NCBI GenBank assembly: GCA_963930775.1
Contig: OZ005689.1
Coordinates: 3,038,001-3,102,000 of the forward strand
Reading direction: 5' to 3'
DNA: 64,000 bases
Origin: Cliona cf. orientalis
Taxonomy: Eukaryota > Porifera > Demospongiae > Clionaida > Clionaidae
Positions 15,786 through 62,079 of the stretch are shown here, one piece after another. Position 1 is the stretch's first letter; each line of letters begins with the position of its first letter. Below the pieces are notes generated by a model. That model made no database searches and was not told the DNA's origin. It saw only the letters and a program-made list of their open reading frames with translations. The position numbers were made by a program, and so were the translations under genes.

Positions 15786-17760
15786 CTGTAGCTATCAGAG
15801 AATTATACAATCATGGCATGTATAATACTATTAAAATAATAACAATGCACATAATGATGAATAATAATTTATTTGGCCATCACTTATAATAAAATCATTT
15901 CCCATTCCCAACCCGCATCCTCACTTATTATTGGCAGTTTCATTGGCCACACCATCTAATTCAAGGTGGGTTTGGGGGTGTGGTCAGATTCTGTAGATAG
16001 CTCAGTTGTTACTGCATCATAAGTCAGCTAATACCAGCAGATTGTTGATACATGCATGGGTTGTTGACAAATTATGAACTTCAAGGGGACGGAAACAAGT
16101 AATATTACAAGTCATGGCCTATTATGTCACTGTTTATGGTACCTGATGTTTCTGAGTAGCTGTGGTGCAGATACATGACGTACATGATCAGAAAAACTGT
16201 TGACTTGTCAATGAGCATAACTGTATAGCTATAATATAACAGAAATTTTGTTTGCTCTTGTATATCAAATTTGGGAACTTGCAGATAAGCTCATGATTGA
16301 TATATAATACCAAAACAGAAAGTATACATTACATTACTAAACTTATGTATAGTGCTATATACTTTCTGTTCGGGATAGCTCTCTATTTTATACTTTGAAA
16401 CCACGTGAAGTGTTCTGATAAAGGGGTAATCTTTAATAGTAGAGGCAGTTTCAATTGGTACACTTCAGGAATAGCTATACCTTAAAGTGTGGCATATTTT
16501 GTCAACTGGAATACTATAATATTATTCGCTAAAATTAATGAAAAATTAGATCGATCAGATCTTCGACTGTGTACAATCTAACACACCAGTACCAATGATA
16601 ATGGGTACATATAGAATGGATCGGAGATTGATTGCTCTGATTTAAATTTTGATAATAGTGAAATGGCTGAATGTTCAATGCATATTCACTCCATGACCTA
16701 TAATAATGATGCTAAGTCTTCTGTTTATTATTCACCTCAAAGAATAAAAACTGCCTCATGCACCCTTATAGTTCATATCACAGCTTGGGAGATTGGTACT
16801 AACTTAGTCTAATATGCAAACTCACTCAGGTAGCAGGCTGAATGCATTCTATAATACTGTTACAGTATTATAATAATATTATACTACTAGGTGTATTATA
16901 GCAGCTTGATGTATCCATGCATAATATTATTATTATGGTACTGAAGTGGAGGGCTGCTCTAGACTAAGTCTGGTGTATACAATGTCATACCAATTTCTCA
17001 CAGAATTATCAGTGCTATTATGTATAATGAAATTACTTTGCCATCAGTCAAGATATTGCATATGGTATATTATACATACACCCCTGACATGTATACGCAC
17101 ACACAAACATACACTCAATAGCGTTTTGATATCATTAATTTTAATGTCGTTTTGAATTAGTTGACATAATATTATAATAGCTATGTGGTCGGATAAATAC
17201 AACGTATACAATACTATCCTTTATGTACATGTTGTAACAAAATTTAATAGGTAATAGAGTAAGGGGCAAACAAACATGCATTATTATACTTGCATTATTA
17301 TGTAGTCTACGTACAACTGCATGCAGCTAAAATTAATAAAGCTATAGAGTAAAATTAATGCAGGTTTGCTGTATGGGCGTTTAATACAGTCCCTCTCCTC
17401 TCTAATGTCTTATGGTTGTAATAAGGCTCACAATCAATGATATACAAGCTATACACAGAGGAAGTAGTAATATTAAATCACCTTGCACTGATACGGCAAC
17501 ACTGGCAGGAAATATTTCCGCTTTGATCGCGATGTTTGAATTATCACCAATTGTAGATGGCGTGCAGGTAGACGTTTACAATGGCCCAATGCAACGATCA
17601 ATCCTTACTTATGAAAGTGCTAATAAATGGACATACTTCCGTAAAATCATACGCGTTGCAAACCACACCCCTCGCCGCTCCGCGCTCAAGCAGGTTGCAC
17701 CAGGAAATGGTACAGGTCGACATACGCATCCCGTATATATAGCGCGTAGCACCTAAATAA
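15786..17760. other. Upstream region of the 14677-15785 gene, no supported gene
   Basis: About 2 kb, AT-rich. It should hold the missing first exon and promoter of the minus-strand receptor, but no candidate has a hydrophobic leader with a phase-1 donor. The open frame 17412-17756 (plus) encodes no recognisable motif. TATAATATTAT-type stretches near 16850-16940 are low complexity. Confidence 0.5.
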
Positions 17761-23184: not shown

Positions 23185-24068
23185 ATGATGAAGTTGCTAG
23201 TAAGTTAGTTAGGATAGTACCAGAAACCTAGATTAAGTGTGAAATGTTATGTATGTAATTACAGGTCATACTCGTGATAGAAATAATAAACTGTGTGTCA
23301 GCCTCAGGTAAGGCTACTTCCATTGATGATATTTAATACATTGATCATGGTGACACTGTGTATCTGTATTACATTCAGAATCTGGCTTGGGGCATATTCT
23401 GGTAACGGAGAATAAATGTACGTGTGAGACTTTAACGTTGGAGTGCAAAGTTGTTGGATTTGGAAGCACAGTGCTAAGACTTCAAGGAAATTCAATCATC
23501 TGTGGCGAAATAATTCTTCTTCACAGTCGCTACACTAGTAGCACTAGAAGTAGCACAGTATGCAATAATGGTGCTATAGAACTAAGAGGCTGGAGCCTTG
23601 CATGGGGTCGAAGATAATTGTTTCATATCACAGCTTCAAATAAAATTCAATGATAACTTCGCTGAAAACCTGGTTAGCTGTATCCATGATAATGGCACGA
23701 CTGAAAACGTGGTTGGAAATTATTTGATTCATGCAATTGGTAAATACACAATGGATTATGATGATATAATATTGTATTTTCGTCTCTGACTAGTATAGAT
23801 CCTCTACCTCCACCATCAGATATCAGCTGGGAAAGAGTCAGCACAGAGGAAATTGTGTTTTCATGGAGTCCAGTGGTCTCCAATTGCTCATCCATTCACT
23901 ATAATATTCTTGATTCAAACTGTGGTGTTTGCCCTAATTCCACCATTGATACCAACATCACGTGTACAAACGTGTCCGCGAATGATTTGTCCATTTGCAC
24001 GCTTGCCGTACAAACAGTCGTGTGTGGGAACATTTTTGGAGAATGGAGTCAAGTCCACCTTCAAAATG
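23185..24068 (+). pseudogene. Frameshifted third member of the Cys-rich receptor family
   Basis: Exon 23185-23199 (MMKLL) joins in phase 0 to 23265-23307, together giving the signal peptide MMKLLVILVIEIINCVSAS. Exon 23379-23739 holds the Ig-like module (NKCTCETLTLEC, LLHSRYTSS, VCNNGAIEL, CFISQL), and exon 23799-24068 the FN3-like module (NCGVCPNST, TVVCGNIF). The Ig-like exon is 361 nt, one more than a multiple of three, and its frame breaks near 23590-23610: upstream runs into a stop at 23617-23619, downstream resumes one base over (HGVEDNCF). The WRGxAFNC motif is also degraded (RLQGNSIIC). A possible next exon at 24161 reads DIHSLSIGAIISYI and stops where a membrane span should follow. 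Either a pseudogene or one base wrong in the assembly; the missing span favours a pseudogene. Confidence 0.72.
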
Positions 24069-24204
24069 GTATGCCTTAATATAGCTACAGAGTCAACAGA
24101 TTTGGTATTGAATTTGCGTGCATATATACATAATATTATTATTATACATATGTCTACTAGATATCCACAGTTTGTCAATTGGAGCTATAATATCGTATAT
24201 ATAG

Positions 24205-25619: not shown

Positions 25620-28600
25620 TTACCGAATTTGTTCGAAAATATTTTCTACTTCATCTGCAGGTGGAATCATAGCCATATAAACTGCCACAATAATATTAGT
25701 TATTGTCCCTTTACCTTTCCATGCTTCTTCACTCTTGTGATCTTCAATAGTTACTTTCTTATTAATGAAGTATTTTTGTACTTGATCTATGCCGTCCTTC
25801 CTTCCTTTCTCTTTGATTTTTGGCCAAAGAAGAATAAGAACTATTAGCAATATGGTGAGAAGTATAACTGCAATTGTTGCCAGTGTAATGCCAAATATAG
25901 CTCCAGGAGACAGACTTTGATTCTGAGACACTGTATGTGTTCATAATAATTTAAAGTGACTATAATATACAAATCCAAGTGTAATTGTTGTAGTTTTATT
26001 GTCTGTTACTGTCTTAGTCTTTGATTTTGCTCTTAGACTACCACTAATTATTAGCAAACGTTAATATTTAAGCATAAGAAAATACATTTGATGCTTGCGG
26101 GTAAGCCACACCCCTCAATATGAGTGTGCTTGAGTGATGAACTAGCTATAAAATCTGTAGTACAGTCAAGTGATTCTCGAATGATGTATGACAAGTCCAA
26201 AATTATACCCCTAGCTACCAAACTGCCAAATGAAAATAAAAGAAAGATAAAAATGGATTCTTGCTTCTTTTCTCCCTCCCCCCTCCTTCTCTCTCTCAGG
26301 CAAGGGCTGCTATGGATAAATTTTGAATCAGGACTGCCCGAGCCAGCCCTCTGAAAGCGGGATAGTTGGATCCGAGATCTAGATTATTTATGCAAACAGC
26401 CAGCTATTATATAGTAAGAACTTGAGTGGTGCAGCACCACTCTGCCACTCATTAGCTAGAACCCTGGGGTAATAATATTTGTGTGGTGTATGCTTGTATC
26501 TATGATTTTAGAATCTTTGTATTTGCTGTATATAGCTATCAATCACCAGCCTCGTGCTGTAAGTATCCTGCAATAATGAACCTTGAATTTTATCCCTAGG
26601 ATCTAGAAATATACTGACTACACTCACAATTTGCCATGATACATGTACTTAAGACATATCAAACTAACCTTGTACTTTTACAGGAAATGATTTGGAAGAA
26701 AACCCAGCAATGTTACTGATATTACACTGATATGTTCCATTGAATAAACTTGTGGCCATGGCAATGGTAAGACGTGAAGATTTGTCTGTAGTTATAATTT
26801 CTCTGCTGCACAACATACTGTTATCTGTTTCATTGAACACAATTCCATCCTTCTTCCATACAACATTAGGAGTTGGTGTCCCATTAAACATACACTCAAT
26901 CGAAAATGGTTCACCGATTTGAGGATTAGGAGTGAGGCTTGTAGCAGCTGTAATAACAGGTTTAACTGCGAAGAGTCAAATATCATCATAATAATGTTAT
27001 TATCATTGCATACGTTAGATAATTAGAATTCACTTACCACAAAAGTCAAACTGTTCTGTAGCTATAGCCTGTGGTAAACCTTGTTTATTTATAGCAATAC
27101 AGGTGTATTGACCTCCAGCATTTACAGCAACATTTGTAATAGCAATCTAAAATTTAATTATAATAATTAAATATGTACAGAGCCACGAAGCTACATGTAT
27201 CAAGTGTGGATTACACTTAAGATGATAATAATATTATTAAAGGCTGATAATTAAAGTGGCATGCACAATTTAATTATCATATATATGGCGGGTAATTTTC
27301 ATGGGGTGCTAATTTTCGTTATTTTCGTGGTTGATTTGCAGTCACGAAATTTTCCTACCCATGAAAATTAATGCCTATGGTGATATGGTAATATGCAAGT
27401 CCATGATGATGGGTGTGGCCATAAACATCGTGGCAGCACGGCCAACACTTCCCAGTGTTAGCAAGCAACAGTAGCCACTGCTGATAGCGTCTTGGACACT
27501 AATATTCTTCTATCTCATACTATTTGTCCAAGGCTCTGTAGGTATGGCTTAGTAATAAAGAAGATGGTGAGCAAGATCGCGAGCGCATGTATTGATTACA
27601 TCGTCACTTGTGCAGCAGTGCCAAGTCCCTGCACTGGTTGCTGTCACGAAATTTAAAACCACAAAAATTAATTTTGAGGGCCTTTTCGGACTTTCCATGA
27701 AAATTAGCGCCCACAAAAATTACCCGCCATACGTATGCACAAGCGATCACAGGCTAATATGTGTAATACAGCTACTTCTCTAGGGTAAACAGAACTGTTA
27801 AACTGATTTATTAAGGGCCTGGAGAAACAGTTATAATATAGAACTTTTGTTAATTTTTACCGCTGCGGTTTGTGATTTCATAGTATCTTCAGGGTATAAT
27901 ATACACAGCCATTATACCTGAACGCATTCACAAGCAGTTCAACACTCCTATATAGCTCATCTATTCCTGACATGTACAGTGAATAATGCATGGAGATTAT
28001 TATCATGTGCATCCATGAAAATGAAACTGTTGAAACCTTGAAGACTGAGCCTTCAAATTCTGTGAAAATTGGACCCCACAAAAAGTTTCCACTATAATAT
28101 GATCATTGTTCTTACCTGGTCATAAAATTCCTCAGTAATAGTTTCAAAATCACCTTCTTGTGGGGAAATAATTACGTCATTCAGCCGAAAGTCTATCTTA
28201 GGGCGGGGAAACCCTTGAACATTACAGCGAAGAGCTACAGTGGTACCCTTCTTCAAGCAGGTTTCATTCAGGGTCAGGCCAGTAATAGAAATGGGTACTA
28301 ATTAATAATAATAATAGTATTAACTCATGGAAGAAGCGGTGATGATAATCAGCGTACATACCTGGAATAGTAATGTAAAGAGGCTTTGGTAGCTGAATGG
28401 TTTCATTGGTATGATTCATGATCAGTTCTGCAGAGTAACTCCCAGATGTAGTATTCAATACTGTCACATTCAACGTAAAAGTCCAGTTCAGCTGTAGGTT
28501 CTCAGAGTATTCCATACAAGGATTGTTAAATACAATGTTGTCATTAACTGTTAAAAGAGTGCCATTGAAAGTCCATTTTATGCTTGGACAGGGATATGCC

Positions 28601-31600
28601 ACAACATCAACAGAAAAGCTCACAATACTACCACTTTCTCTTGTAAAGAGGGCACCAACATCTCGATCATCAGTGGCATTAAGTGTTTTGAAATCATATG
28701 GCTGTACTTGAGGTAAGACTGAAAAAAGGATAGTTCACTGAGAGTTGATTGCATTACACCCATCAATGCAATCAGTTCATAGATAATAGAAAGTTTTCCC
28801 TGCGAAATGCTCCATTCCTACGGATCCACAAAAGTTTTCTCCTCCCGAAAGTTTCCCACTATACGATAGTAGCCCAGGACATGGTGCACATGCATGCATT
28901 AACCATTTCAAGCTATGCACAATAATAATATTATTATTGTAGACTATAATACTATTGCATGCATACTTAGTCTAGCATACATTGATTACACTGTGCATGG
29001 CAATTCTATCTTAAGCGTCTTCTCTTGGGATCCTTGTGAGCTAAGCTGCAAATTAATTGGTTACTATCTATTTTCTCTAGCTAGCTGATTGATAAAGTCT
29101 CATGATCAGCCATGTGCTCTATGGTGATCAGGACTGGCATGCCAGTTGCAATTATTTATTAATAAGGGGAGACAACAAGGAGTGAGCGAGCAAAAGAAGC
29201 TCACTCCTTGTAAAGTATTACGGGTGCTCATGTCCAATCAAAACTGAATACATTCAATTTTGATTGAACATGAGCACACATAATACTTTAATTAAGTGCG
29301 TGATTCACCTGTTTCAAGTCCAACTTCCCCACTATGATTAATCCCACTTACTTGGTTGTCTTATCTCCAGCAGCCAGGCTTGCTGATCATCCCCAAACTC
29401 ATTGCTAACAATGCACTGGTAGATACCAGAATGGCTGACTTGAGCAGAGCGAATGATTAATTTGTTGCCGACAACATATATTATACCATTAGTATTGTTG
29501 GTGGGAATACGAGCTCCATTGAAGTAAAATGCAAGGTTGGGAAGAGGATATCCTTCAAATTCACATATATATGTCAGGTTCATTTCTCCAACTAAACGAT
29601 CTCTTTCATCTTCTAAACTGTTGGTTATTCTGGGAACCTCTGACAGTGTATGTGTGATTTTATACTATTATCCTTTGCTTGTATCCATAATGTATGGTGG
29701 GTAATTTTCAAGGGGTGCTAAATTTCATTGTTTTCATGGTTGATTTGGCAGTCATGAAAGTTTCTACCTACAAATATTAAATTTAGAAGCCTACGGTATG
29801 CAAGTGGACAGATGATGGGTGTGGCCAAAAACATCAGTGGCAGTGCGGCTAAATGATCCCAGTATCAGCCAGCAATAATCATTACTGTCATCCAGCTGAT
29901 GGTATCTTCGATGCTAATATTCTTCTCTCTCCTGCTATTTATCCAAGTCTCTTTGCAAATGTAGATTAGTGACGAAATTATGAGTGAGATCGAGCATGTG
30001 TACATCATGTTTGCATATGCACCGTGCTTTTGCTGTCACAAAACACGAAAATTAATTCTGAGGGCTATCTCTGACTTTCCACGAAATTAGCACCCCCAAA
30101 GATTATCCACCACATGGTATCATACATATAAATTTTTACCTGGAGATAATTTTCGCCAATTTGCTACCTGCTCTTGTTGGTGAAAATTAAATTTATCACG
30201 CTACTTTTTTATTTTATCTTGTTATAAAAGATTGCACAGAGGATAATGATCACATTGACAAAAATTTTTCACCAAATTTTTCTACAATACAAAGGTAGCT
30301 GGGCTTCTAACTTACGGTTTACTGTTAAGCTCCCCCTCCTTGTCGCTTCTAAGCCATCGTATCTTATATCAGCCTTTAGTGGAAATATTCCTGGTGATAT
30401 CGATGGTGGGAGAGTAATAGTTCCAACGCCTCCTTTCACAGGTACTTCAATACTTTCGTTCCAGAAAAGCACGTTTACAGTTTGATTTGAAGCACTACCA
30501 AACACTCCACCAATATAGGAAAATTGAAAACTTGTGTTTCCTACAAATGCTGTCTGGTTTCCTATTTGTTTGTACTCCTCAAGCTCCCCCTGAGTTAGAG
30601 TATCAGTCAACACATATCTGGTAGGAGCTGAGACTTCTTGACTCAAATTGGCATTGGTGACTGCACAATAATATTGTCCATTAAAATCCTTAGGTTGCAG
30701 ATGTTTCAAAAACAAGTAATGCCGATTATCAAGAAAGGTCACATCCGTCCTTTCTTGAATTTCATTGGTATCATTGTACCACTTAATTTGAACAGGAGGT
30801 TTGGCATCAAGAATAGCACACTCAAGAGCAACATCAGAGCCTAATGCTGCAGGGATTGCACTTGTTCCTTCTTGAAATCCATCAAAATCTGAATTATTGT
30901 GCATATTTACATCATTGATATTACATTATACATTATGCTATTATAGAACTTACAAGCATAGTAGATAGTTATACTCCTGCTCCTGATCGCTACATCAAAG
31001 CCAATAATATCATCCCTAGCTATGCAGTAGTAGTCCACTCCTTCCCGGCTGGCATACTCTCCCTCAGTGATGTTAGGCACTATGAGACTGCCTTCTTCAT
31101 TCACCATGGATCCTGGGATCTCCTGATCCTCTCTGAACCAGGTGTAGTTCACAGTGGGAGATGGATCAACAATGGGACAGGGTAGGGTCAAGGTTTGTGG
31201 ATTGCCATTTTCATCAGTTTCAAAGGTATAGACGTTAGGGTGTTGGCTTGCAAAGGCTAATCTATGCGCTGAAAAGATACATAAGAACTATAATAGACTA
31301 GTATATAACTTATTGTTATAGTTCCAAGACAGTATCACAGCTGTTAGCAATCCATAATCATGATTAATCTTATAATCCTATAGTCATTTACTTTCCTTAT
31401 ACTTTCCCCTATGTACTGATTAATCCCTAATTGTACTCGAATTATTGCCTGGAGCGTGGTTCATAATAATCATACTCTTATTTCAAGTATGGCGCACCAA
31501 CATTCACAATGACAGAGTTGTTGGTAAGGTTTTTCAGTCTCAACAATCTCTGTCCTGTCAACTAAAAGGAGACTTACGCCTTTATTTTGTACGTTCTTGC

Positions 31601-34600
31601 CATCATTTTTATCCTGTTGGAGTGTATAATGGTACCACTGGTAGCTATATATGGCACTCATTACCATATGCATAAATTGAACTACATGACTAATATGCAA
31701 TCACACACATTCTTGTCCAATTAGGGAAAAATTGTACACACAATTGTCAAAATTAGACTCGGCTTGCCTCATCCAATTTTGACTATTGCTAATACGATTA
31801 TTGTATTTCCCTAATTGGACAAGAATGTGTGTAATTATCTATACTAATCAAATAAAATAGTTAGTAGCTGTATAATTATTATACTATTGTGCCCAAAATT
31901 CTGCAATTCCTATGAATTTCTACCAATCTATAGCATCAGTGTTTGTGGGTATATAGCTACATGATGCAGAAAGCACTAAATTAACCGATTATGGGCGATA
32001 GACGCCAATTGGCGTCATATACGTAATGTACGTTATAGGCGATTGACGCCAAATGGCGTCAAAGCTGTTTTCTTCGCGTTTTTCGTGCATAGCGCTAGGC
32101 TACTACGCTCTACGTCCGGTTTGTGGTTAGCCGCTGACCGCCGCTACTAAGTTATGGCTTCAGGTCGCGCCGGTAGCAATTAAGTGGGTGTGACCGACAC
32201 CGTTAACCAAGCCGCTCGATCGCCATTACGATCGACCCGGGTGAAAGTTCGAGGCTATTATCATTGAACCAACAGAGCTACAGCCATGGCGCTTGGTCCA
32301 TAGCTAGACGAGTGGATAGCGACTACCTACGAGTAGCCGCTTTGTGAAGCCAACCTTGAACGCGAGCGGCAGACTTGAAGACGGCGGCCATGATCGAGGT
32401 AAGAAGGCTTCTAAGCTTTTAGACGCTACTACAGCGTTTAGTTCGATAGTGTACGGCGGAACAGAAGAACGTGAGGCTTCTGGCAACTTATGTAGTTGTC
32501 AACAAAGCCTTTAGAGGTAGCTAAGGCCCGTTACTTAGCTACAATAAGCTTGTCTATAGGACGCTTTATTTTCATGTTAAATATTTCGGAGTTCAAAGTT
32601 CAATTGACCCGTACAACCCCGCCCATAATCGGTTAAAAAGGTACAGCTTGAACTATAGGGGCTGGCGAGGTGAGTGCCCTGCTTGTAATTTGAATGCAGC
32701 TGGGCTAGGGATGACCTACTCAGCAACATTAAGGCATGGCTGGCCATAGTCAATGTAGCAAAATGCAAAAAAATTCATATCTTCCAAACGCCTTAACGTA
32801 AATCTGCCAAATTTAAGATTTGATAATAACTCATGATCCTTGATGACCATACTCACTTGTGAGGTCATGTGACCTTGTATCGCCAATAACGAAGCAAAAG
32901 TATGGACTGCAAGAAAAGGATTTGTTCCCATAGAGATCAAGACATGAAATTTTGTGAGCACATGTACTTTAATACCTAATTATTGTATCTGGCTGTGGAT
33001 CAATTAATTATGTTTAATTAAGGAAATAGGGACTTTTTCTAATTAATGCACACCACACTCGGTAACATTATTGGCCATAACTTATTAATGACAGCATGAT
33101 TAAACTTCCACAGCAAGTTACAATTAGTAGGTAAGTAGGTCTATGTTTCTATGCAAGTATCATGTCTTGATCTCCATGGGAACAAATCCTCATTTTGCAG
33201 TCTTTTTTAAGGGACATTATTCACCCTGCAGCTGCCATATAAGGTCACATGACCATAAAAGTGGGTGTGGTCACTAAGGACCATGAGTTCTTATCAGATC
33301 TTAAATATGAAGGTTTATCATCATGGCGTTATGAAGATATGAAACATCAGCATTTCTATGGGCCACCCGTGCCTTAATACCCCTGAGTACTCCTAGTAGG
33401 CTGATCATGAATTAATTTTTTGCCTATAATACTTGCTCTACGTTCATCAAAGAGTGTGCCGGGCTACCACAATTTGGACAGCGTCTAAGAGTGGAAAGGT
33501 ATAACATGGACTTGCACTGACGATCATTTTGCGATCACTCAGTGATACTGGAGCTGACGGCAATAACCTCTGCATGTAGCTATAGTTGGACATCAACTGT
33601 TACAGCTTTCTTTTGCTGGACCTGTTCTATTTACATTCGAATAAGCCATTTATGTACTATCTATTTAGCTAAGGGGCCTTGTCCAAAGTCCTTGTGGAAA
33701 AATTAACGTCATTATGACGTTAACATTTTACCCCCCTCCCCCCCCCCCTCTCTTAACGTCACAGCATTTCAGCATAGATTCAATACTGAAACTCTGATTC
33801 TGCTCCATTTAGCCTACACATTTGGTATTCACTTGTATTCTACAGTGCTAGCTATGTCTTCATGGATTCATTGCATACCTGTGCTTCTTTAATAGTTTCT
33901 TCCTTGCCTGTAGCTACGTGCGCACTTTTAGCTACATAGTGCTTGATACAGCTGTCACTAAAATGCAAATTTGACACTGCTGGAGGTGTGTCCAGACTTG
34001 TTCAACCACAAGAATGCATAATCACAACTAAAGCTAAAGTCTGCTGACAATGCAGTTATAAACATCATGGACCAAGACCCCCTCCCTCCCTAACATCATA
34101 ATGACGTTAATTTTTCCACCAGGACTTTGGACAAGCCCCCTAACACCAATCGAATGATGATATTAATTTTTGGCCCTTCGGATAATTAGAGCGAGTACGG
34201 TATAATACCATTCTCAAAATGCCTGATAATGCTCAAAAAGTGGAAGTGTTACAGTAACAGTAGCTACCTATAGATACAGTGGGAATCAAATTAAAGTTCA
34301 CATAGTGTATGCATACTGTGTATGTAGGTAGTTACTACCTACGCAGCTTACTAATACTGTAGAACAAACACAACAGCTGTACACACAATGTCATGCACTC
34401 ACTATTGAAGTGTGACATTGTGGACAGACAAGCTCTGGTACTAGTGTAAACCATAGATGGCAGTGAAGCCATGCCTAGAATAAACACTGGGTGTGGTGGA
34501 TGGCTCTCATCAATCTGCTGGGTGTTCATACCCACCATCACAAAATTCTTAATTTCCATAATAATAATTATAATATTATTTGCGTGGACTATACTACATA

Positions 34601-37600
34601 TGCTGCTGGGCACATCCATACTTCTAATTATAAGTTCATAAATTTTCTGCCTTCTTGACACACTGCCTTTTGCTGGGAGCATTCTCGGTGACTATGCAGC
34701 GTCTCTTGATTTTTAAACTTCCATTGCAAAACATCATCTTAGGGCACTTATTCCCCTATGATAGCTGTCACCATGATAATAATAGATGCTATTAATGTTA
34801 AGGCATCTAATTAACCTAACATGATAAATTACAAACATTAAGGAAATGCTATGATAATAGTGATCATAGTTATATCCCGAGTCTCAATCAACAAAAAATC
34901 GGCCAACCAATGAAGTAATTATGATGTAAGACTGTTTCACAAATTAATTTTAATGTTTAGCTCGCATGAAAGGTTATTGGGGTCCAGAATTCGAACCTAG
35001 TGTAGAAGAGATCATGGACTATCGATGATATAATATTATGCATGGCGATTCTCTCAGTTTGCTTTCCGAAGTTTGGTGAGCTTGTACTCTGGGGGGATTT
35101 CCCTATTCAATCTCGCATATGGCAGATGGAGATCACGTCTGGATTAAAAGGCCAAAACATGACCACTAAAGTTTAGCTATCATAACCTCTACAAGGTTAG
35201 GTATACTTCATGAGAAAGTTATTAGAACATTGGTAGGGCTGCATGCACGGCTCCAATTACACAAACGAGATGTATACTACTGTAGCACATAACCATACAC
35301 AGATATGTAGAATCTCAGGGGCTGATCCGGGGGGGGGGGGGGGGGGGGGTGGTGGTTAGCTAGGGTGGCTAGCCACCCCCCTTCACCAGTTCTTTTATGC
35401 AACATAGTATAGGAGATGTCCACCATTATTAAACAGCCACCCCCTTTGCACCAGTATGGTTTACTATGGGTAGCCACCCTATCAGCCACCTGGGCAATGC
35501 AAATTTTCTGGATCAGCGCCTGACATGTATGTAGATACACAAACTATACTGATTAACTACCTCATGTACTAATAATGAGGCATGCCATTAAATTCGTGTA
35601 TAGCCATAACAGTACTTGATCCCCAACATTATTTGTTGGTCCCCTCCTAAAGAAAAAAAATTAAATATTAATTTACTTTCAGAAGTATATATAACTGTAG
35701 ACAACTAGTACTGTTTTGACCATCAAGTATTAGTGCAGGGCAGTACTATAATATATCCTAAAAAAATGGACTTCTACATGCAGATAAGGGAACACATGGT
35801 ACACTCTCTCTGGCTTAGAAAATTTAACAAAGCTAGCTCAGTCACAAGTGAAGTTGCATCCCAGATTCTATCACATTATAGTTAACATACCCCTACTATG
35901 TGGTTATGCGTGAGTGTATGTAGGGGTGTGTTAATGTTTTCAAATGTCATATAATAACACTACAATTGTGGTATCTGAGTATGACCACTGGGACAGCCCG
36001 GAATTGTTGGCCATTGCCTAGCAACCAAAGTTTTTGTAGGCAAATTGTCATCTACCAGTCTGAGAGCGGTATGGGTGATCATAGTGTAGGACAATGATGA
36101 GAGGGGATCATGGGCCAACAAACTAGTTACTGTTATGGGGTGCATTTGACCATGCAGCTCATGCTCCCAATTAAGGGCATCCTTGGAACTATAATATTAA
36201 ACTTGTATCCATGCAGAGTCAATCTATACTCAATACATCTAGCTAGCCATCATATAAATCCGTGAGAACTAATCATTAAAGGGGGTGATAGAAAGAGAGA
36301 GCTTATAGGGTTTCATCTAGCGACAAAATTTGGAGTGGAAGCGTGATAAATGAGTGGGCATGTATAGCACACAAACTTAATTCCTTAGACGTATTTTAGG
36401 AGAATTCCTCCAGATTGTTTCGGGTAAATTTTGATCAAAAACGAATTCTAGTGATTTGATTTGGTGACTTATTGTGATATTATGATGCTTAATTTAATTA
36501 AAGTCAAATTGGGGGGGGGGGGGAAGCTTCCCTTTGTCCTCCCCACTGGAATCCGGGATGAAATCCTGGCTTATCGTTTAATAAGTAGGCCTCGATCAGC
36601 TCAAGCAAGTGAGGAGAAGCTACTACAGCTGTAGTATAAGCCAGACGAATTACACACTACTGAGGTTATCAGGCAAGGAGCACATTAGAACGAGTAGTAA
36701 GTCAAGCAGAGCCGAGCATAGCATATTATACTTTTACTAAGCTGTTTGTCTATGAAATTCCATCTGTTGACTCTGTTAGGTCTGTGCCTTTGCTAGGCTG
36801 TATCTTGGGCTGAGTCTGGCCAGCAGCTAGCCAGTCAGATTGATGGTTGGTGGCTCCCTGGTCCCTACACCTGTATATGTAACACTTCTTAACAGTAGAT
36901 GTACGCGCGTGCTGCTCTGTATATAATATCATATTATTTAGCTTAACAGCAGGCTAAACGCATGCGCAGAAGACCTACTAGTCTCGTTCCCAGACCCCAC
37001 CACGCACATGAGGAAAGGGTCTGGTACACATTGAGCACTTTCTTGGGCGCACAGGATGCAGCTTGTCATGTGACTGTCACGACAACGCATCATTTTGGCA
37101 TAGCAACGCATCAACCACTCTCACGAGCAGCAATAGCTGGCTATAGTGCAGTATCACATGATAGCTAATCACATATAAGCCACATATGCATGGCGCGACC
37201 CTGATTGGTGCGACAGAATTCAGATATGCCAAGTCAGCAAGTCCCAAAAAGCATGCACCAGCCCCTCTCCTCCTATTGGGGGTGGGGTCTGGGGACGAGA
37301 CTACAGAAGTGACCATATGCACACACCCTTCACTTATAGTCTAATGGGTTCTCAATAAACAACTGTTGCTTATTCAGGCTTAATGTTTGGTGGGGAAAGG
37401 GGGTTGCAGACAGGGCCCCTATTATAGCTAGCTATAATTGGTGTTAACATAGAGTATAGGGGCACCAAACAATACCTCAGCAATCATGATAGTCTCATAA
37501 ATACATATAGCTAACTACATGACTGAATACACTTTGTTATAGTAACTTGCCAATTCATCACATGTGTAACTACAAGTTCTTCCTTTCATGATTAGAGTCT

Positions 37601-37789
37601 ACCTGATTCAGTGAACATTCAGGGTATTATTAGCTATATTAATATGTCGGCATGCTTACACACACCATAATATTATGTAACTTTTATAAATACACAGCTA
37701 TACTTACTGCCATGACTGCTCCTAGTTCGACCTGGCACAGAAAGTACCAACACCAAAGCACCAACTAAACCATGATGAATAGCCATCAT
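25620..37789 (-). CDS. Seven-Ig-domain type I membrane receptor with a YMAM tail (left half of a head-to-head pair)
   Basis: Exons 37708-37789 (signal peptide MMAIHHGLVGALVLVLS), 30954-31268 (Ig1), 30316-30888 (Ig2 plus an Ig-like third), 29352-29639 (Ig4), 28362-28718 (Ig5), 28116-28297 with 27038-27146 (Ig6, split in phase 0), 26669-26965 (Ig7), 25620-25930 (membrane span and tail). All phases agree; 837 residues. The span is about residues 744-770, then a tail with AVYMAMIPP near residue 819; Tyr-x-x-Met is a known SH2 (PI3-kinase type) motif. The TAA stop at 25620-25622 overlaps a GTAAGT, so a further exon is possible. The first intron is 6.4 kb and full of MITEs, so the link to the 37.7-kb leader is the weakest join; it rests on phase and on the layout of the paralogue at 38461. 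Probably a surface recognition receptor. Confidence 0.8.
27284..27732. mobile_element. MITE with TATGGCGGGTAATTTT ends
   Basis: About 449 bp bounded by inverted TATGGCGGGTAATTTT; arms stay similar for about 35 bp (GTGCTAATTTTC against GCGCTAATTTTC). It lies in the intron 27147-28115 of the minus-strand receptor. A diverged full-length relative is at 29693-30117, and a shorter relative at 54437-54580. Confidence 0.75.
29175..29290. repeat. Two adjacent hairpins
   Basis: 29175-29211 pairs ACAAGGAGTGAGC with its inverse; 29211-29290 pairs TAAAGTATTACGGGTGCTCA with a near-exact inverse ending at 29290. Both have short loops. They lie between the exons 28362-28718 and 29352-29639. Confidence 0.7.
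29693..30117. mobile_element. Second copy of the TATGGCGGGTAATTTT MITE family
   Basis: Starts TATGGTGGGTAATTTTCA and ends in a decayed inverse near 30117. The internal order matches 27284-27732 (AATATTCTTCT, then a Ser/Cys-like ACTTTCCACGAAA block). It is more diverged than the copy at 27284. It lies in the intron 29640-30315. Confidence 0.65.
31703..31832. mobile_element. 130-bp MITE with perfect 27-bp inverted ends
   Basis: Both ends are exact inverted copies of 27 bp, starting ACACACATTCTTGTCC and going on through AATTAGGGAAA. The exact match suggests recent movement. It lies in the giant first intron of the minus-strand receptor. Confidence 0.8.
31981..32636. mobile_element. piggyBac-like MITE flanked by TTAA
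   Basis: Perfect 17-bp ends TTAACCGATTATGGGCG at 31981-31997 and its inverse at 32620-32636. Counting TTAA as target duplication leaves 13-bp inverted repeats CCGATTATGGGCG, the arrangement piggyBac elements use. Just inside the left end are two palindromic words, GACGCCAATTGGCGTC and GACGCCAAATGGCGTC. The interior of about 600 bp is GC-richer than its surroundings and carries no transposase. Confidence 0.78.
32727..33379. mobile_element. Long foldback element
   Basis: About 230-bp arms in inverted order: the left starts ATTAAGGCATGGCTGGCC, the right ends with the inverse of ATTAAGGCACGGGTGGCC. The arms share ATTCATATCTTC-type, TTTAAGAT and GATCAAGACATGA words with scattered differences, around a central AT-rich stretch. 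Non-coding, old, in the giant intron. Confidence 0.65.
33673..34140. mobile_element. MITE with CTTGTCCAAAGTCC ends
   Basis: Left arm GGGGCCTTGTCCAAAGTCC and right arm its inverse (GGGGGCTTGTCCAAAGTCC), about 50 bp each, running through AATTAACGTCATTATGA. A C-rich run (33730-33750) lies inside the left arm. No coding capacity. Confidence 0.75.
34141..36980. other. Remainder of the giant intron, no gene seen
   Basis: About 2.8 kb with no exon of matching phase. It holds a G homopolymer (35329-35349) followed by short imperfect copies of GTGGCTAGCCACCC, and a second G run near 36510-36522. Short ORFs here have no protein-like composition. Confidence 0.5.
35329..35349 (+). repeat. Run of 21 G
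   Basis: An unbroken G homopolymer, read directly. It could form G-quadruplex structures and is also prone to sequencing error, so its exact length is uncertain. Confidence 0.8.
36981..37302. mobile_element. Family A MITE copy
   Basis: Bounded by GTCTCGTTCCCAGACCCC at 36981 and an inverse differing at one base at 37302. Same terminal motif as the elements at 6447 and 10396. It lies about 400 bp downstream of the leader exon, in the giant intron. Confidence 0.75.
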
Positions 37790-38460
37790 CTTGGTACCGC
37801 CGGAATTGAAAGTTTAAAACGATAGCCGTGGGTTTAATTTCAATAAAATGATGATAGCTAGCTAGCTGCTGTCATGTACGCCCTACTATGAGAAAGTTAT
37901 TACAAACATCCCAAGGAAACGCTAGCTATTTATATATAGTAGGCGGATACCTGGACTAGAGACATCCCACGCTACGGTTCAAGAGTCTACACACCCGCTA
38001 TAATGTGCTTCACCGAATTGATAGGCGTGGCCAACAAACGCGACCCTCGTAAACCTGAATACCGAATCCAACTAGAAAATAAATTATTAATTACATCTAT
38101 ACATCATTGCAGTAACAGTAGTAAAGTAAGTAGTAATTCTTTGACAGGTATGCTGCATCTATACAAAGTAGGTTTTCATGCAGGTCCTGCATACAGCTAA
38201 TTAAACACAAAATTAACTAGTCTATAATTTAATGTGAGTTTGGGAGTGCCATCATATGTAAATAGAGCATCTCGAGCTCGTTGAAAAGCAATCATATAAT
38301 AATTTTTGTGACGGGGGGTACATACGTGGGGGTGTCGCTGTGCGCATGCGTATTTAGATCCACATAGGCTGCTGCATGTGTGTACCGACGAGGAAAGCAC
38401 TCCTTAACTCTCGCTAAAAGATCGTAACGAATCGAATATACCAGCCTGATTACGTGCAAG
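37790..38460. promoter_or_regulatory. Divergent promoter of the paired seven-Ig receptors
   Basis: 671 bp separate the two start codons (37789 minus, 38461 plus), so both promoters lie here. A TATATATAG stretch is near 37932. Not otherwise dissected. Confidence 0.5.
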
Positions 38461-41400
38461 ATGATACTCCAAAATGTTATCATCACCTTCAGTTTCGTAC
38501 TAGGCTTGCTGCTGAACAGTACCAACATCAAGGCTACACACAATCGTAAGCTGTGGTGCCATCTAGGCATAACTATTATAAATAACTCTTTTGTTATTAA
38601 AACCTTAAGAGTAAATCAGTTAAAATTTTCTGTATGCATGGCACAGGCAAAGTTGTTTCAGATCAACCTGTGTGTTCTCAGAGTAGCTATGGTCAAAAAT
38701 AATAATAATTATGATAGTTATGCTTTACATCAAATTTGAGTGATTGTAATAAAAAAAGCAGGCTTTCATAGTACCCTATTTTTCTAATAATATGTAGCTA
38801 ATAGATGCTGCTTTTGTTAGACACACAAACGATAACCAATAAAGACTGAGAACCTAACTTGTATTTGAAATGAGGTGGCTGAAATAAATTCCGATGATGA
38901 GGGAGTGAGTTCCAAAGTGATGCAGTGTGTGGAACAAAAGTGGAATACGATAACAATAATTAATGTGTGCATGGGGATAAGGAACAACATGAATACAAAT
39001 ATTGTAAGTGATTGGTGCAACTGCTGAGAGATTGCTGATGGGTAGATATTAGGATTAGTATCCTTAGGAAAGTAGCATGTAGCTAACTGCAATGATATCA
39101 TCTTATTTAATGTACAGTATCTGGATCACCACCTGTCATTGGAAGCCAATGCCCTAATGTCTATACCTTTGAAACTGATGAAAATGGCAATCCACAAACC
39201 TTGACCCTACCCTGTCCCATTGTTGATCCATCTCCCACTGTGAACTACACCTGGTTCAGAGAGGACCAGGAGCTCCCAGGATCCATGGTGAATGAAGAAG
39301 GCAGTCTCACAGTACCAAACATCACTGAGGGAGAGTATGCCAGCCGGGAGGGAGTGGACTACTACTGCATAGCTAGGGATGATGTTGGCTTTGATGTAGC
39401 AGTCAGGAGTAGAACTATTACTGTCTACTATGCTTGTGAGTCGGAAATTCAATGATAATTATCATGACTGTTATACGCATGCACCTTATCTAGATTTTGA
39501 TGGATTTGTCCGAACAATGAACTCAGACAGAAATACAATTGAAGTTCCAGTTCCTGTGGCATTGGGCTCTGATGTTGCTCTGATGTGTGATGTACTTGAC
39601 GCCAATCCTCCTCCTCAGATTAAATGGTATGATAACCAGGGAGAAATTCAAGAAATAATACAAGGGAACGAAGTACGCTTCCTAGATAACAGACATTTTC
39701 TATACTTGAGAAGGCTACAAGTTACACACCTGGAGCAGCAGTATTATTGTGCAGTCACTAACGCCAATTTGAGCCAGGAAGTAGTTGCTCCTACCAGATA
39801 TGTACTAACTGATAATTTAAGACAAGGAGTGCTCATGGACTACAAGCCAATTGGTGATTTGAGAGCATTTGTTGGAAATACAAGTTTTGAATTTGCCTAC
39901 GTTGGTGGAGTGTTTGGTGATACTTCAAATGTAACGCGTAACACACTAACTTTCAATAACGATGATGTATCTGTTCTTGGGAATATTGGAAAGATTAAAG
40001 AAATGTCATTGCTTTCATCTGGAATATTTATGCTCAGAGCCAGAGTCACTTACATCAACAAAGTTGAAACAAAGAGAGGAACCCTAACTGTTTATCGTGA
40101 GTTAATTCCATTAATAAATCCTCATAAATTTCAATGCCATAAGATTGCAGGTGTTCCCAGGATCACAACCGTTTTCCAAGATGAAAGAGAGCACTTAGTT
40201 GGTGAACACAATCTAACATATCCATGTGAATTTGAGGGATTCCCATATCCGAGGGTTACATTTTATTTCAATGGAGTTCGTATTGTAGCTAATAGTTTTG
40301 GTAATGTTATTATCATCAATAACACTCTGATTATTCCCACTCCTCAAGTCTCCCATTCTGGCATCTACCAGTGCATTGTCAGCAATGAGTTTGGGGACGA
40401 TCAGCTAGCCTGGCTGCTGGAAATTAGGCAACCAAGTAAGTTGAATATAGCTATAATTATGATCTCATATACAGTTCGGGTTTGGGTTCGATTTCAATCC
40501 CATGCATGCTTGCATTCCATGGGCCAGCCGAAATTCTGTATTTGTATATACTGATATGCTTATTCTTGCACTCTCAATAATGTTTCAGTTTCACCTCTGG
40601 TGCTGCCATACAACTTTACGAAGCTAGGTGCATTTAATGATCAAGATCTTGGTGCTCTCTTTGTGAGGGATAATGGCAGCATTGTAACCATCTCCGTGGA
40701 TGTTGTAGCAGATCCTTGCCCTGACATTTTGTGGAGTTTTAATGGTACTAGACTGGGGTCTAGTAATAAGACATTTGCATACAATAATGCTTGCATCACA
40801 ACGATGAGTACTATAAGAAGCCCCAACTGGACATTTTTTCTGAATGTTACACTAACAGAAAGTACTTCAGGCTATTACTCTGCAAGCTTTACTAATGTTG
40901 CTGGAACAATCTTTCTGCCCAGAACTTACATAACAATTCCTGGTATGTTCACAATAATATTCATTCTAATCATCGTTAAAATTATGTTATTCAACTAGAG
41001 CCTGTCTCTGCCATTGGCTTATCATTAAATAACACCTGCTTATTGGAAGGCAGTACTGTATCACTTAAATGTGAAATTAGAGGATTTCCACGCCCGAGAG
41101 TAGACTTCAGACACGAAGGCATAAACGCTACTTCAAAATTTGAGAATATTCTATTGGAATTTTACAATCAGGCAAGGAAACTGATGGTAGCAACATGCAG
41201 GCTATCTATCTCTTAAGTCCCCATGCATGATTGTATACGACGTTGCTATTGTAAACATGCATGAACTATCATGCATGCATGGAGATCGAAAAGGAAAAGT
41301 GCAGGATTAACCAGATTGTTCTTGTTTATCACATTCTGCTCTATCCTGCTCATTTCCTCCTGATCTGCATATTCAGTTTCTACTATCATTATTACTATGC

Positions 41401-43484
41401 TATATCACAAATATAAAAATGAGGATGTAAATGGGGCAATTGTGTATTATATGGACATTTATGTTCAACACCCCCCTCCCCTTGGCCTTTGTTGACCCCC
41501 ATCAGATGAAAAATTTAAACTGCTCATCAGTAGGAGGAGGTAAATTATGCCGGCATAATATTATTTTGAGCATAATAGTTGTGTGTTAGCATTAATTTTG
41601 AGAATTATGCTAGCATTATAGGCATCTACTAGCATAATTTTGAGAATTTTAGGGCACACAATTGCAAGTAGCTGTTCAATACAACTAAGTTGACCTTTAT
41701 CACAATGCCTGGACTACATATTGTGGACTGGAAAAGGTTTAATCAATCAGCTGGTGCCCACTTTCGAATCCGAGCACATGTAAAACTAAAATGGCTACAT
41801 GTACTCGACGATAGTGTAACCAAGTCTCCTAATGTCTCATATCGGTTTTTGTTAACATTATAGTCAGTTCAACTTGAGCATAATGGGCAATGTAGTGGGA
41901 ATTATAGGTATACTTTTTGAGCATTATTAGGGATTTTTTGAGCATTTGAGAATAGCATTATAGGCCAGAAAATTAGCATAATTTACCTACCCCTACTCAT
42001 CAGATATTATTACTGTGAGCTGGCATTCAGCATTATAATTATGGAGAGTCAATCTGCGTGTACATTATTATACTATCACAATTATAATACCAAAATCCGC
42101 ATTAATTTTAGATTGTAATCAGCAATGTCACCAAGAGTAATGAGGGCTTGTACAGTTGTACTATCATCGGTATTAGCCGCTTTGTCTCGGAGATATTTTA
42201 TTTCTGCAGTAAGTTCAATAAAAATTATAATTATTGTGTAATTTTAATATCCCTAGCTTGCACCATGCAGATAATATGTTTTATTCCTATAGCTCTGCCT
42301 CGTATTACTGGTGTGGATTTCACATCAAATCCACGCATTGGAGAGTCCTTCTTTATGGAGTGTATGGTTGATGGGATACCATTGCCAAATACTGTCTGGA
42401 TGAAGGATGGAGCCCTACTAGAAGTAGAACAGGTAACAATTATTATTAGCTGTAGTGCATATTGTCATGGATATCAATTCCTTAATTATCGTGGATTGCA
42501 TATTATCATTAATTTTAGTGTCTTGGTTCTCTGATATAACTTATGTAGTTCCATAATAAATTAATAGATTGATCTAAACGTTCGAATTATCAGTATTCCC
42601 GCCAGAATGTCCTCTCGTATTGAAATTTCTAAGGCCAGTATTGATGATAGTGGAGAGTATCAGTGTATTGTTAGTAATGATGCTGGCTTGGTCAACCATT
42701 CCTTTCATATTAACTTGGTGCAAGGTCAGTTTAAATTGCTGTATACTAATACTTGATTGTATCATTCATTTATTGCCATGGCTATGAATCATGAATGTAA
42801 TTATTATCTTCAGCACCAATGCCTCTTGAAATAATCATTGGCACAACATCAGGAGTAATACTTCTCATCTTAATAATAATACTCATCGTAATCGTACTCA
42901 TGTGTGTATTATATCGACGAATGAAGGGCAAAAGCAATAAACCTCAGCCTCATAATGTCGTTGGTTAGTTAATTACTCGGTGCAATCATACAGTATAAAC
43001 TAATTCTTATTAGTGGATCACTCTCACACAGATGTAGGTAACACTTACTCAGTCAATGTGGCATACTTGAGACATCAACGGTATAATAATGTTAACATGG
43101 TACTATAGCACCTTTACTGCAGCTATGGTATAACAGTTATTTCCTTTAATTTTTTAGCACTTGCAGCTTTAAGACTTAGCATGCAATACCTAGTAACCTG
43201 TAAATCATTGTATGACAAGATAAAAATTTAATATTATTGTACCATCTTATCACTCCTTATTAATTAAAAATAACAATAGTGAGAAATCTGAGGTAACCTA
43301 CCCTGTTTATGAAACCATACCGCATTCTGATCCCGCTAAAGTATGGAAGAAAAAGGATGGAGCAACCTGCACAGATGCACAGGGTTATGAAATTGTGAAC
43401 TTGCCAACACATGAGGATGCACGGGTATCTAACAAAATCGACAATAATGATAAACTACAGGAATTGTCTGTTTCAATGTTGTGA
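38461..43484 (+). CDS. Seven-Ig-domain type I membrane receptor with Tyr-rich tail (right half of a head-to-head pair)
   Basis: Twelve exons: 38461-38545 (signal peptide MILQNVIITFSFVLGLLL), 39118-39435 (Ig1), 39494-40096 (Ig2 plus an Ig-like third), 40151-40435 (Ig4), 40589-40942 (Ig5), 40999-41171 with 42112-42208 (Ig6), 42293-42432 with 42568-42724 (Ig7), 42814-42963 (membrane span, about residues 743-769), 43032-43080 and 43280-43484 (tail). All phases agree; 871 residues, complete. The intron after 41171 uses a GC donor. The tail of about 100 residues has several Tyr, including YPVYETIP and GYEIVNLP, which resemble Src-family SH2 targets (Tyr-Glu-x-Ile/Val). It aligns domain by domain with the gene ending at 25620, but the tails are unrelated, and its Ig7 has an intron that the other lacks. 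Likely a signalling recognition receptor; ligand unknown. Confidence 0.88.
38843..38960 (-). pseudogene. C-terminal fragment of a LINE reverse transcriptase
   Basis: Read on the minus strand the segment encodes FVPHTASLWNSLPHHRNLF followed by FKYKLGSQ. This aligns with FVPHTSSLWNSLPKDI and FKYHLRSQ at the end of the LINE ORF at 17800. It is a short 3'-end remnant in the first intron of the plus-strand receptor. Confidence 0.8.
41528..41996. mobile_element. MITE-like element with GGTAAATTATGC ends
   Basis: The left edge (near 41528, CAGTAGGAGGAGGTAAATTA) and right edge (near 41996) are imperfect inverted copies through GGTAAATTATGC. The interior repeats TAGCATAATTTTGAGAATT-type words. It lies in the GC-AG intron 41172-42111. 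Confidence 0.5.
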
Positions 43485-43870: not shown

Positions 43871-45576
<1,706 letters not shown>

Positions 45577-46032: not shown

Positions 46033-47619
<1,587 letters not shown>

Positions 47620-48160: not shown

Positions 48161-51100
48161 ATGCAGCTCTGCAGAAAGGGGGGAGGGGCTGGATCAGCCT
48201 CGCAGACACTATTGCTACCTCTGATCGCGACTGTATTATGGATTGCGAGTCCTACCAGCAGTCAAATAAGTAAGACCTTCCTAATTTGCAATGTATAGGT
48301 ATACACATGTCATGATTTTCCTGTGTAAAAAGAAAGAAAAGTGCCAGATCATAACAATAATGATGATGTCATCACAGACACACCCCAGTATCCCTGTGAT
48401 GCTGAACCCACGTGTAATCTTCTTTCTCTCCTTCCCCTAGCGTTCACCAACCCTCCTAGTGACTTGGTGGTGGCCGAGGGCTCTCCTGCTAGGTTCGATT
48501 GCGAGTTCAGCACCTCCACCTCTGTGTCTATCAGCTGGGAGAAGGATGGAGCAACAGTTACTCCAGTTGGAAGGTTCAGCTACCTTGTGAATGGCAGCTT
48601 ATCGATAAGCCCCACTCAAGCTGGTGATAATGGGACGTATTCTTGTGTTGTGGCCGATCAGTCGAATCAGCAAAGAGAAGAGAGGAGTGCATCGTTGATG
48701 TTTGCCTGTAAGGAATTCAAGATAGTTTGTTATGTCTGTGTATAAGAGTACAGTGCACTCTAAACCCACATGCCACATGCCATTAATATTCATCTTTGGC
48801 AGTAGCTGTAGTTGATTAGTTTATCTTTTGATTGTTTATACTATACCTCAGCCAACTTGCATGTGTACAATACTGAATCGAAATTTGGGTGCTACATGTA
48901 TGTCTCTGTCTCTCTCTCTCCTCCTCCTCTCCCTCCCCTTCTCTCATCCCTCTCTCCTCAGTCATTCTCAACTCATTTCTCTCAAGTCCCGACAGTCAGA
49001 CTGTAGCCCATGGAGCCACCTTCATCCTCTTTTGCATCCACGGAGGGAGCTTACCAGCTGCCACTATCACTTGGACTCACAACAACGACATAATAGTGAC
49101 ATCATCCAGAATATTAATCCAGCAGTCTACATTAGGCCATGCAGACCCTCCCCAGGTCTCTAGCTCTCTGGCTATAGCGTCAGCAGTGAGGAGTGACTCT
49201 GGGAGCTATGCCTGTGTTGCCAGTAATCCACTGTTGGCACCTTCCACTGCTGTGACTAGTACACCAGCCACAGTGACAGTCAGAGGTAAGGGGGAAAGAT
49301 TAATGCTGAACCAATTTCAGGCAAACTGTTGTGCAATAATTACCAGATTTTTCTGCAAGATTTGTTATAATGAAAAGCTGTGCATAGGAATACATAGGAC
49401 CTGGTAGTACAATGTAAAGGCTGTCCTAGATGTGCATTATTATACATCTATGTACGCACCAAGGTATCAGCTTATTAATTTTTTAACGACACCCTAGCTG
49501 ATTCAATAGTGCTAATTGATTTAAGACTCATAACAACGACAAACCTAGGGTGCCAAACAAAAAATTTTTCTTCCGCACAAAACATAAGAATGTAACGTTA
49601 CATGTATGTTAATTTTGTTGCCAAAAAAGTTGTATGAGTTTATATTCTATTCCCCAGCTCCGCTCAGTGTTCCAACTATCACCCAGCATCCAACTGACAT
49701 CATTGCTATTCCTGACCAATCAGCTAACCTTTCCTGCTCCTTCAGTGGGGAGCCGCCACCCTCCGTCGTTTGGTCACATGACAATGTCACATTAACAACA
49801 TCTAGTCAGGTAAAATTTATCATGTCCTATCTATCTACCTACATTGTATGCAGTCATCCATATGATGCATATTAAAGTCAGTGTTGTATCCAAAAGTAAA
49901 GTGGGGTTTGAGGGGGTCTTGAAGTGTGACACCTACCATTCCACTACATGGCCTACCCTTGTGCGTTGAAAAAGATCGGGGAGCCTGGGGATGAGGCTAA
50001 CCTAGGCCTACCACTCTACTATGGTAGAACTTTTGGTGAATATTTACATATATATCAATCAAGGGATAAAGTTGCTACCTTGGCCCCTTATTGAAATGTG
50101 GTGCATGGCTCAGGGACTTACCCGGGAGTGGGCGCTTGCCTGGTACACTACATGTACGTACAGTAATTTGATTTCATTATCCCATCTGTGATGTAGGTAT
50201 CCATCACCACCACTGAAGTGATGTCTTCACTAACTCTCTCTGGTGTCCAAGAAAGTAATTCAGGAGAGTATCGCTGCATGGCGACCAATTCCCAGGGCTC
50301 TACAGTTAGCCAGCATGCACAACTGCAAATTGCAAGTAAGTCAACCAAAAAATCTCCTTCAGCAAAGCCTAATCTATCATGGTCATGGAGGCCCCTTCAC
50401 GTTCATTCATTGATTCATGTACATGCATATGTGTAATATTTGTTCATCTATAGCAGTCAAACTGTACTGCGACACCCTCAGCGTGCAGCATACATGTATG
50501 TACAACTACCGTTTTTGCAGGCATTGGGACAACCTTTGATCTCCAGCCCCAAGACATTGTGATAGCAATTGGTGGAGTTGGTGTCCTCAATTGCCTCTCT
50601 CCTCCCAGCCTACCCTCGGCACAAATCTCGTGGACCAAAAACTTCGCCCAGCTTCCAAACAACCAGCGATTCACGGTGCTGCAGAATGGAAGCTTGATGA
50701 TCATGGGAGCTGAACTGGAAGACCAGGGTGTCTACTACTGCACAGCAACTAACACTCTGCTGGGGATATCCAGGACTAGCCAGCCAGCACAGGTCACAAC
50801 CATTGGTAAGTCTAAGATTTAAAGAACAGCCTCAGTCAGCAGCTAAAGTCCTAGCTACAGTACATGGACATGAGAGTTTTCCTCCCTCGATCAATCCCAA
50901 GAAGAGAGCTTGGAAATTCCATGCATACTTGATGAAGTTGGGAGTAATTTTGTGACTCCTAAAAATTTAGTAGTTGTTTTAGGCTAGTACCATAGGTAGC
51001 TACATGTTATGTTGTAGTGTACATGCATGTGTGTCCATTGGATGAATGTTTAGCCTGGTGGCTACATCTCAATTAGCATGGCTGAAAGGGCTAATCCAAA

Positions 51101-55294: not shown

Positions 55295-55328
<34 letters not shown>

Positions 55329-55683: not shown

Positions 55684-55740
<57 letters not shown>

Positions 55741-62042: not shown

Positions 62043-62079
<37 letters not shown>

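Follow-up and report, generated by a model that had tools for sequence, protein, structure and literature searches.

A head-to-head pair of demosponge receptor genes with a homogenised distal domain and different tails

A window of 64,000 nucleotides from the Cliona cf. orientalis assembly GCA_963930775.1 (contig OZ005689.1, here C1:3038001-3102000) contains two receptor genes that diverge head-to-head from 671 bp, the minus-strand gene running from 37789 to 25620 and the plus-strand gene from 38461 to 43484, both with intact frames. At the level of gene models, this confirms the observation of an earlier note on the same DNA, which had described two such receptors with different tails; its paired-receptor interpretation is partly supported. 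Both predicted proteins appear to be exposed type I receptors with seven immunoglobulin (Ig)-like modules, denoted D1 (distal) to D7. The D1 exon has been homogenised between the genes, most simply by gene conversion, and this near-exon-restricted homogenisation is a stronger paired-receptor hallmark than those reported in the earlier note. The chances that the sponge pair works like a paired receptor set are about even.

Genome searches covered 216.8 Mb in 149 contigs. The host, previously called only possibly a sponge, is identified as a demosponge by a mitochondrial contig of 19.6 kb (C149), in which COX1 has eight in-frame TGA codons, 26 tRNA genes all lie on one strand, and a reading frame of 78 amino acids (aa) is recognisable as atp9. 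Mitochondria of demosponges are marked by the presence of atp9, an almost complete complement of tRNAs, the decoding of TGA as Trp and genes that all lie on one strand.

Gene models and protein architecture

Exon borders were set from GT-AG rules, intron phase and comparison of the minus with the plus gene, giving models of nine exons and 837 aa (minus) and twelve exons and 871 aa (plus). All modelled borders are GT-AG except at the intron that follows plus exon 6, which is GC-AG (41171-41172). The rows below rest on these models, with further evidence in brackets.

37790..38460: shared upstream region, 671 bp between both ATGs
37708..37789, minus: exon 1, predicted signal peptide (MMAIHHGLVGALVLVLSVPGRTRSSHG), top leader candidate, phase-1 donor GTAAGT
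30954..31268, minus: exon 2, D1, homogenised with the plus gene (identity and fragment tests)
30316..30888, minus: exon 3, D2 and D3 (genome search)
29352..29639, minus: exon 4, D4
28362..28718, minus: exon 5, D5 (Pfam scan)
28116..28297, minus: exon 6, D6 first half
27038..27146, minus: exon 7, D6 second half
26669..26965, minus: exon 8, D7 undivided
25620..25930, minus: exon 9, transmembrane (TM) segment and entire tail with YMAM; the stop TAA overlaps a donor-like site, CG/GTAAGT
38461..38545, plus: exon 1, signal peptide, ends ATHN (leader scan)
39118..39435, plus: exon 2, D1, homogenised tract at about 39139-39435 (fragment test)
39494..40096, plus: exon 3, D2 and D3
40151..40435, plus: exon 4, D4
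40589..40942, plus: exon 5, D5 (Pfam scan)
40999..41171, plus: exon 6, D6 first half, GC donor
42112..42208, plus: exon 7, D6 second half
42293..42432, plus: exon 8, D7 first half
42568..42724, plus: exon 9, D7 second half
42814..42963, plus: exon 10, TM segment (hydrophobicity)
43032..43080, plus: exon 11, small tail exon
43280..43484, plus: exon 12, tail with YETI and DAQGYEIV (motif scan)

Ectodomain introns are mostly in phase 1 and at matching places in both genes, the exception being D7, which is split in the plus gene. The one-to-one exon alignment claimed previously thus holds through D6 and breaks down beyond it, where a single minus exon for D7 corresponds to two plus exons, and a single minus exon for the TM segment and tail to three.

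First exons were sought as an ATG followed by a hydrophobic stretch and a phase-1 donor, as in a secretory first exon. On the minus strand between 31269 and 38460, the leader at 37.7 kb scored best (2.88) and was the sole candidate followed by GTAAGT. Alternative minus-gene leaders within the intron were set aside for their lower scores and lack of GTAAGT; one at 36724 comes near, scoring 2.79, but its donor, GTGTGT, is less good. The plus-strand scan (37701-39117) gave 38461 as its only candidate. The 335 bp before each ATG show no likeness between the genes (263 of 300 shuffles as good), and of two pairs of inverted repeats around the shared 671-bp region neither accounts for the gene pair. 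A promoter scan, which used a bacterial consensus, was uninformative.

Each protein has one N-terminal hydrophobic segment and one TM-type segment. A module-wise Pfam scan, covering every module of the plus protein and three of the minus protein, bears out most of the description as seven Ig domains: matches are clear in D1, D2, D4, D6 and D7, weak in D5 and absent in D3. No sushi or kinase domain was matched in either protein at an expect value (E) up to 0.1, so that the Ig-domain receptor tyrosine kinases of sponges, marked by a cytoplasmic kinase domain, offer no parallel in that respect. Among the best 60 of 143 matches to solved structures, DSCAM, Robo 2, titin and contactin 5 score best, and the matches fall mostly over D4-D7. 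The pair resembles the adhesion proteins DSCAM, Robo, contactin and sidekick to the extent that these are among those 60 matches; it departs from them in its tyrosine-bearing tails and in a D1 that is homogenised between neighbours, and their architecture is a different one.

Likeness of the two distal exons

A genome search with D1 returned six clear loci and four weak matches (E 0.005 or worse), and one with the D2-D3 exon returned six loci. All six lie on C1: the pair at 3.07 Mb, paralogue A at 0.157 Mb, and B1, B2 and B3 at 1.18, 1.21 and 1.24 Mb. The four other members share the pair's arrangement of exons across D1 to D7, their D7 being undivided, and are 69-93% identical to one another in DNA per segment; the pair forms a separate, older branch of the family. 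Candidate leaders of A, B2 and B3 end in ATHQ, compared with ATHN in the plus leader.

The ectodomains described previously as matching are homologous, but unevenly so. Plus-versus-minus DNA identity is 92% in D1 and 47-75% in the other segments (D2 69%, D3 61%, D4 75%, D5 60%, D6a 61%, D6b 47%, D7 57%). At the protein level D1 is 87% or 90% identical, depending on the alignment and the ends chosen, and the remaining segments 38-69%. Synonymous divergence (dS) is 0.14 in D1, or 0.185 in a pairwise alignment; outside D1 it runs from 0.72 (D4) upward where computable, some D6 values being uncomputable because they are saturated. Trees built per domain pair plus with minus as sisters in each of the eight segments, with support of 0.76 in D6b and at least 0.99 elsewhere, and the path between them measures 0.15 in D1 and from 0.46 (D4) to 1.75 (D6b) elsewhere.

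A fragment permutation test was run on the 1299 polymorphic sites of a six-gene alignment from which columns gapped in any gene had been dropped. The best plus-minus fragment lies wholly within D1, and with each of three penalties no shuffle out of 10,000 reached it; the D1 fragment was likewise reached in none of 10,000 when third positions only (571 sites) were used. The best plus-minus fragment outside D1 was unremarkable (322 of 5000 and 426 of 5000 shuffles under two penalties). Strong constraint on D1 was considered as a source of this likeness and rejected: D1 of the pair is only 42-49% identical to that of the four other members, the other segments ranging over 32-59%. Because D1 is not intrinsically slow-evolving and third positions are shared as well, homogenisation fits and constraint does not.

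The borders of the tract were examined in the flanking DNA. Exon 2 begins with 21 bases that are unlike in the two genes (239 of 300 shuffles as good); over the rest of the exon, 297 aligned bases, identity is 93.9%. Slight likeness (7 of 300) is seen in the 120 bases before exon 2. Farther along, plus intron 3 shows no likeness to the 54 bases before minus exon 4 (148 of 300), and plus intron 4 little to the 153 bases before minus exon 5 (39 of 300).

Tails and the paired-receptor reading

The tyrosine motifs reported earlier, YMAM in the minus tail and YPVYETI and YEIV in the plus tail, are all present in the gene models, and the tails do differ: a forced alignment reaches 23% in the TM segment and 21% in the tail, and genome searches at E up to 10 returned no further copy of either tail. 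A shared tail end or common 3' exon was rejected for the plus tail's want of a second copy, its exons having none near the minus gene, and because none of the exon candidates listed after the minus last exon makes a convincing continuation from its donor. Tyrosine sites of the plus tail include YRRM, at the membrane, YETI and YEIV. The last stands in the context DAQGYEIV, found in the plus tail only, which we take to resemble the hemITAM, a relative of the immunoreceptor tyrosine-based activation motif (ITAM). The Y-M-x-M form of minus YMAM is presumably a site for p85 of phosphoinositide 3-kinase (PI3K). A p85-type inter-SH2 (iSH2) search gave four genome matches (best E 3.3e-6); among 14 control genomes a single one, that of an archaeon, had a match as well, below the cut-off.

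Tails are readable in two of the four other family members: that of B3 has YESI, and that of A is provisionally read as having YESL, where the YESL exon joins the TM exon in phase only via an unseen small exon; in B1, a TM-like exon sits in a partial duplicate and its frame closes early. We offer as a suggestion only that YE[ST][IL] is the family default and YMAM a departure from it. That YMAM is an altered YE[ST][IL] site is suggested by its position and look, the tails being too diverged to align.

The reading we prefer is that old duplicates of a six-locus Ig superfamily (IgSF) family diverge from a common 671-bp control region, and that the D1 exon, copied between the genes in whichever direction, would stay near-identical while stalk, TM segment and tail diverge. 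With D1, the putative ligand-contacting domain, in common, both receptors would bind the same partner; the plus receptor would signal via YETI and the hemITAM-like DAQGYEIV and the minus receptor via the p85-type YMAM, and a single ligand would yield two intracellular readouts, balanced through co-expression. The sequence itself shows the gene structures, the homogenisation centred on D1 and the absence of detectable similarity between the tails; the shared ligand, the phosphorylation, the co-expression and any opposition of signals are parts that we infer. Whether the pair takes one ligand through D1 and signals in different ways, as a demosponge paired-receptor plan, seems to us evenly poised. 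The fuller proposal is tentative and falls somewhat short of that: a split-signal pair, whose recognition domain would be kept common by repeated exon-sized conversion, with hemITAM/YETI on one tail versus PI3K-type YMAM on the other. If true, paired-receptor logic would exist in a non-bilaterian animal without ITIM (immunoreceptor tyrosine-based inhibitory motif) or ITAM, by convergence or ancestry, which bears on self/other discrimination in sponges and on whether such logic predates vertebrates. The idea is also testable, since the pair is defined, its distal domain is homogenised and its two tails are swappable.

Several results weigh against this reading. A pattern scan found no ITIM, ITAM or ITSM (immunoreceptor tyrosine-based switch motif) in either tail, and the charged residue with which activating receptors couple to adaptors is missing from both TM helices, so the activating/inhibitory split proposed in the earlier note is not supported. 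Y-x-x-hydrophobic sites are common by chance, shuffled tails having at least as many in 459 of 5000 (plus) and 2141 of 5000 (minus) cases. Two YE-x-[IVL] sites (10 of 5000 plus-tail shuffles), a hemITAM-like site (68 of 5000) and a Y[MV]xM site (27 of 5000 minus-tail shuffles) are rarer, these narrow classes having been picked post hoc and their rates being uncorrected. Y-x-x-M alone cannot separate the tails, because the plus tail has YRRM, and YMAM itself is embedded in the hydrophobic stretch NIIVAVYMAMI and may be unexposed. A further minus 3' exon is possible, since the stop codon overlaps the good donor CG/GTAAGT. Likeness between the genes is clear, if lower, in intron 2 and in the opening 60 bases of exon 3 (0 of 300 shuffles each), so that the tract is nearly, and not perfectly, exon-bound. 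AlphaFold models were unusable, with confidence scores (pLDDT) of 42 for D1 and 35 for D2-D3. Head-to-head Ig genes may occur beyond the pair (see paralogue A below), and one homogenised exon can form without selection.

This last point leads to neutral conversion, a rather unlikely account in which exons of a close inverted repeat are struck randomly, D1 being the latest, and each protein has an ordinary adhesion role of its own. Conversion is expected to be easy between inverted neighbours, the pair has a single significant tract with weak fragments elsewhere, and the ectodomain's best solved relatives (the 60 of 143 above) include the adhesion molecules DSCAM, contactin and sidekick. A family-wide fragment test of 15 gene pairs, with 2000 shuffles each, bears on both sides. 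It found tracts beyond D1, between A and B1 in D5 (9 of 2000) and between plus and B2 in D6 (17 of 2000), which suit random strikes and speak against a special role of D1; B2-B3 gave a D1 fragment (82 of 2000). Set against neutral conversion, only two of the 15 pairs have a fragment that none of 2000 shuffles reached: plus-minus, in D1, and B1-B3, from D1 into the beginning of D2. B1 and B3 lie about 59 kb apart in the same orientation. D1 leads among the family tracts, on small numbers.

It is quite unlikely that D1 is instead a face for dimerisation or for adhesion, whether homophilic or heterophilic, acting as a cis co-receptor or in trans recognition as proposed for allorecognition receptors, with conversion keeping the interface compatible: divergent genes 671 bp apart would favour the co-expression it needs, but the unusable AlphaFold structures lend it nothing and it forecasts no specific tail difference. 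A strict activating/inhibitory immune pair is very improbable, since the head-to-head layout, the D1 conversion and tyrosines with a hydrophobic residue at +3 in both tails, which are common by chance, are set against the missing motifs and charged TM residue and against the YETI-like sites of A and B3, which suggest that the plus tail might represent what the family has by default and not a special partner.

Returning to the paired-receptor reading, of the features by which such receptors are recognised the sponge genes have a near-identical D1 with divergent tails, opposed neighbouring positions and conversion apparently centred on the distal exon; they lack ITIM or ITSM in one tail and ITAM or a charged TM residue in the other. 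Layout agrees and motifs do not, and we therefore say that the pair may work like a paired set and do not file it as activating/inhibitory. SIGLEC11/SIGLEC16 are head-to-head genes with converted N-terminal exons (PMC5701461), and the sponge pair is similar in being head-to-head neighbours with a homogenised N-terminal extracellular exon. In SIGLEC11/SIGLEC16 the region spans about 3 kb, in mammalian genes 9 kb apart, with inhibitory and activating members of opposite signalling roles (PMC5701461); in the sponge about 300 bp of one exon are involved, the genes are 671 bp apart and have different tails, and the likeness claimed is that of the Ig fold only. For the Xenopus ceacam pairs, the case is argued in part from their opposite orientation and from conversion restricted to the N exon (PMC5112662). 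The sponge genes are likewise oppositely oriented, with conversion apparently centred on the distal exon, yet the ceacam tails carry ITIM/ITSM versus ITAM-like motifs, which the sponge pair lacks, and the sponge tract is aged (dS 0.14-0.19) with less sharp edges. Botryllus FF/FcoR and Hydractinia Alr are, like the sponge pair, invertebrate Ig-type receptors with tyrosine motifs; FcoR combines one V-type Ig domain with a sushi domain and two Ig domains of C2 type, with canonical ITIMs or hemITAMs possible and motifs that include hemITAM and the core Y-x-x-I/L/V (PMC12065747). The sponge pair differs in its seven Ig-like modules, its lack of a sushi match and its non-canonical motifs. No description of such a pair in sponges was found among titles and abstract openings, most subscription journals and preprints being outside reach.

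Neighbouring and related genes

Two further receptor-like loci were seen near family members elsewhere on C1. By eye, Ig/Fn3/TM-like exons of an unrelated gene stand head-to-head with paralogue A, about 0.4 kb from its candidate leader at 158115 on the minus strand. Between B2 and B3 lies a TM segment with a long tail, which carries eight tandem YEQV/YEKI/YEQI motifs at six-residue spacing.

L038:493-8099 = C1:158493-166099, plus: unrelated Ig/Fn3/TM-like exons facing the leader of paralogue A (by eye)
L032:8632-9588 = C1:1236632-1237588, plus: TM segment and tail with eight tyrosine motifs

Within the window lie members of a very large receptor family, in which a domain starting with GCxCPD, without Pfam match, is followed by an Fn3-like exon (by eye). 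The first two copies listed below are 35% identical, and the minus copy has a TM segment and a tail with AYEHV. The family has at least 150 genome matches (150 of 364 candidates scored), of which about 60 by hand count share a strand at C1:2.75-3.00 Mb, a short way beyond the window, and it looks like an expanded receptor complex. The GCxCPD domain has no solved-structure match at E up to 1. The tandem genes adjoining the pair are of tubulin type, presumably alpha.

14677-15810, minus: GCxCPD family member
7717-9568, plus: GCxCPD family member
23354-24079, plus: GCxCPD family member (by eye)
43871-45457 and 46033-47567, minus: two tandem, very similar tubulin-type genes (named by eye)
12685-13092, plus: HIRAN-domain open reading frame (ORF), 135 codons
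17761-19878, plus: reverse transcriptase ORF, 705 codons
20115-20840, plus: ORF without Pfam match, 241 codons
277-5894, minus: long Ig array, at least one gene
48329-63275, plus: long Ig array, at least one gene, also with an Fn3 domain

With long Ig arrays on both sides of the pair, the window is therefore rich in receptors.

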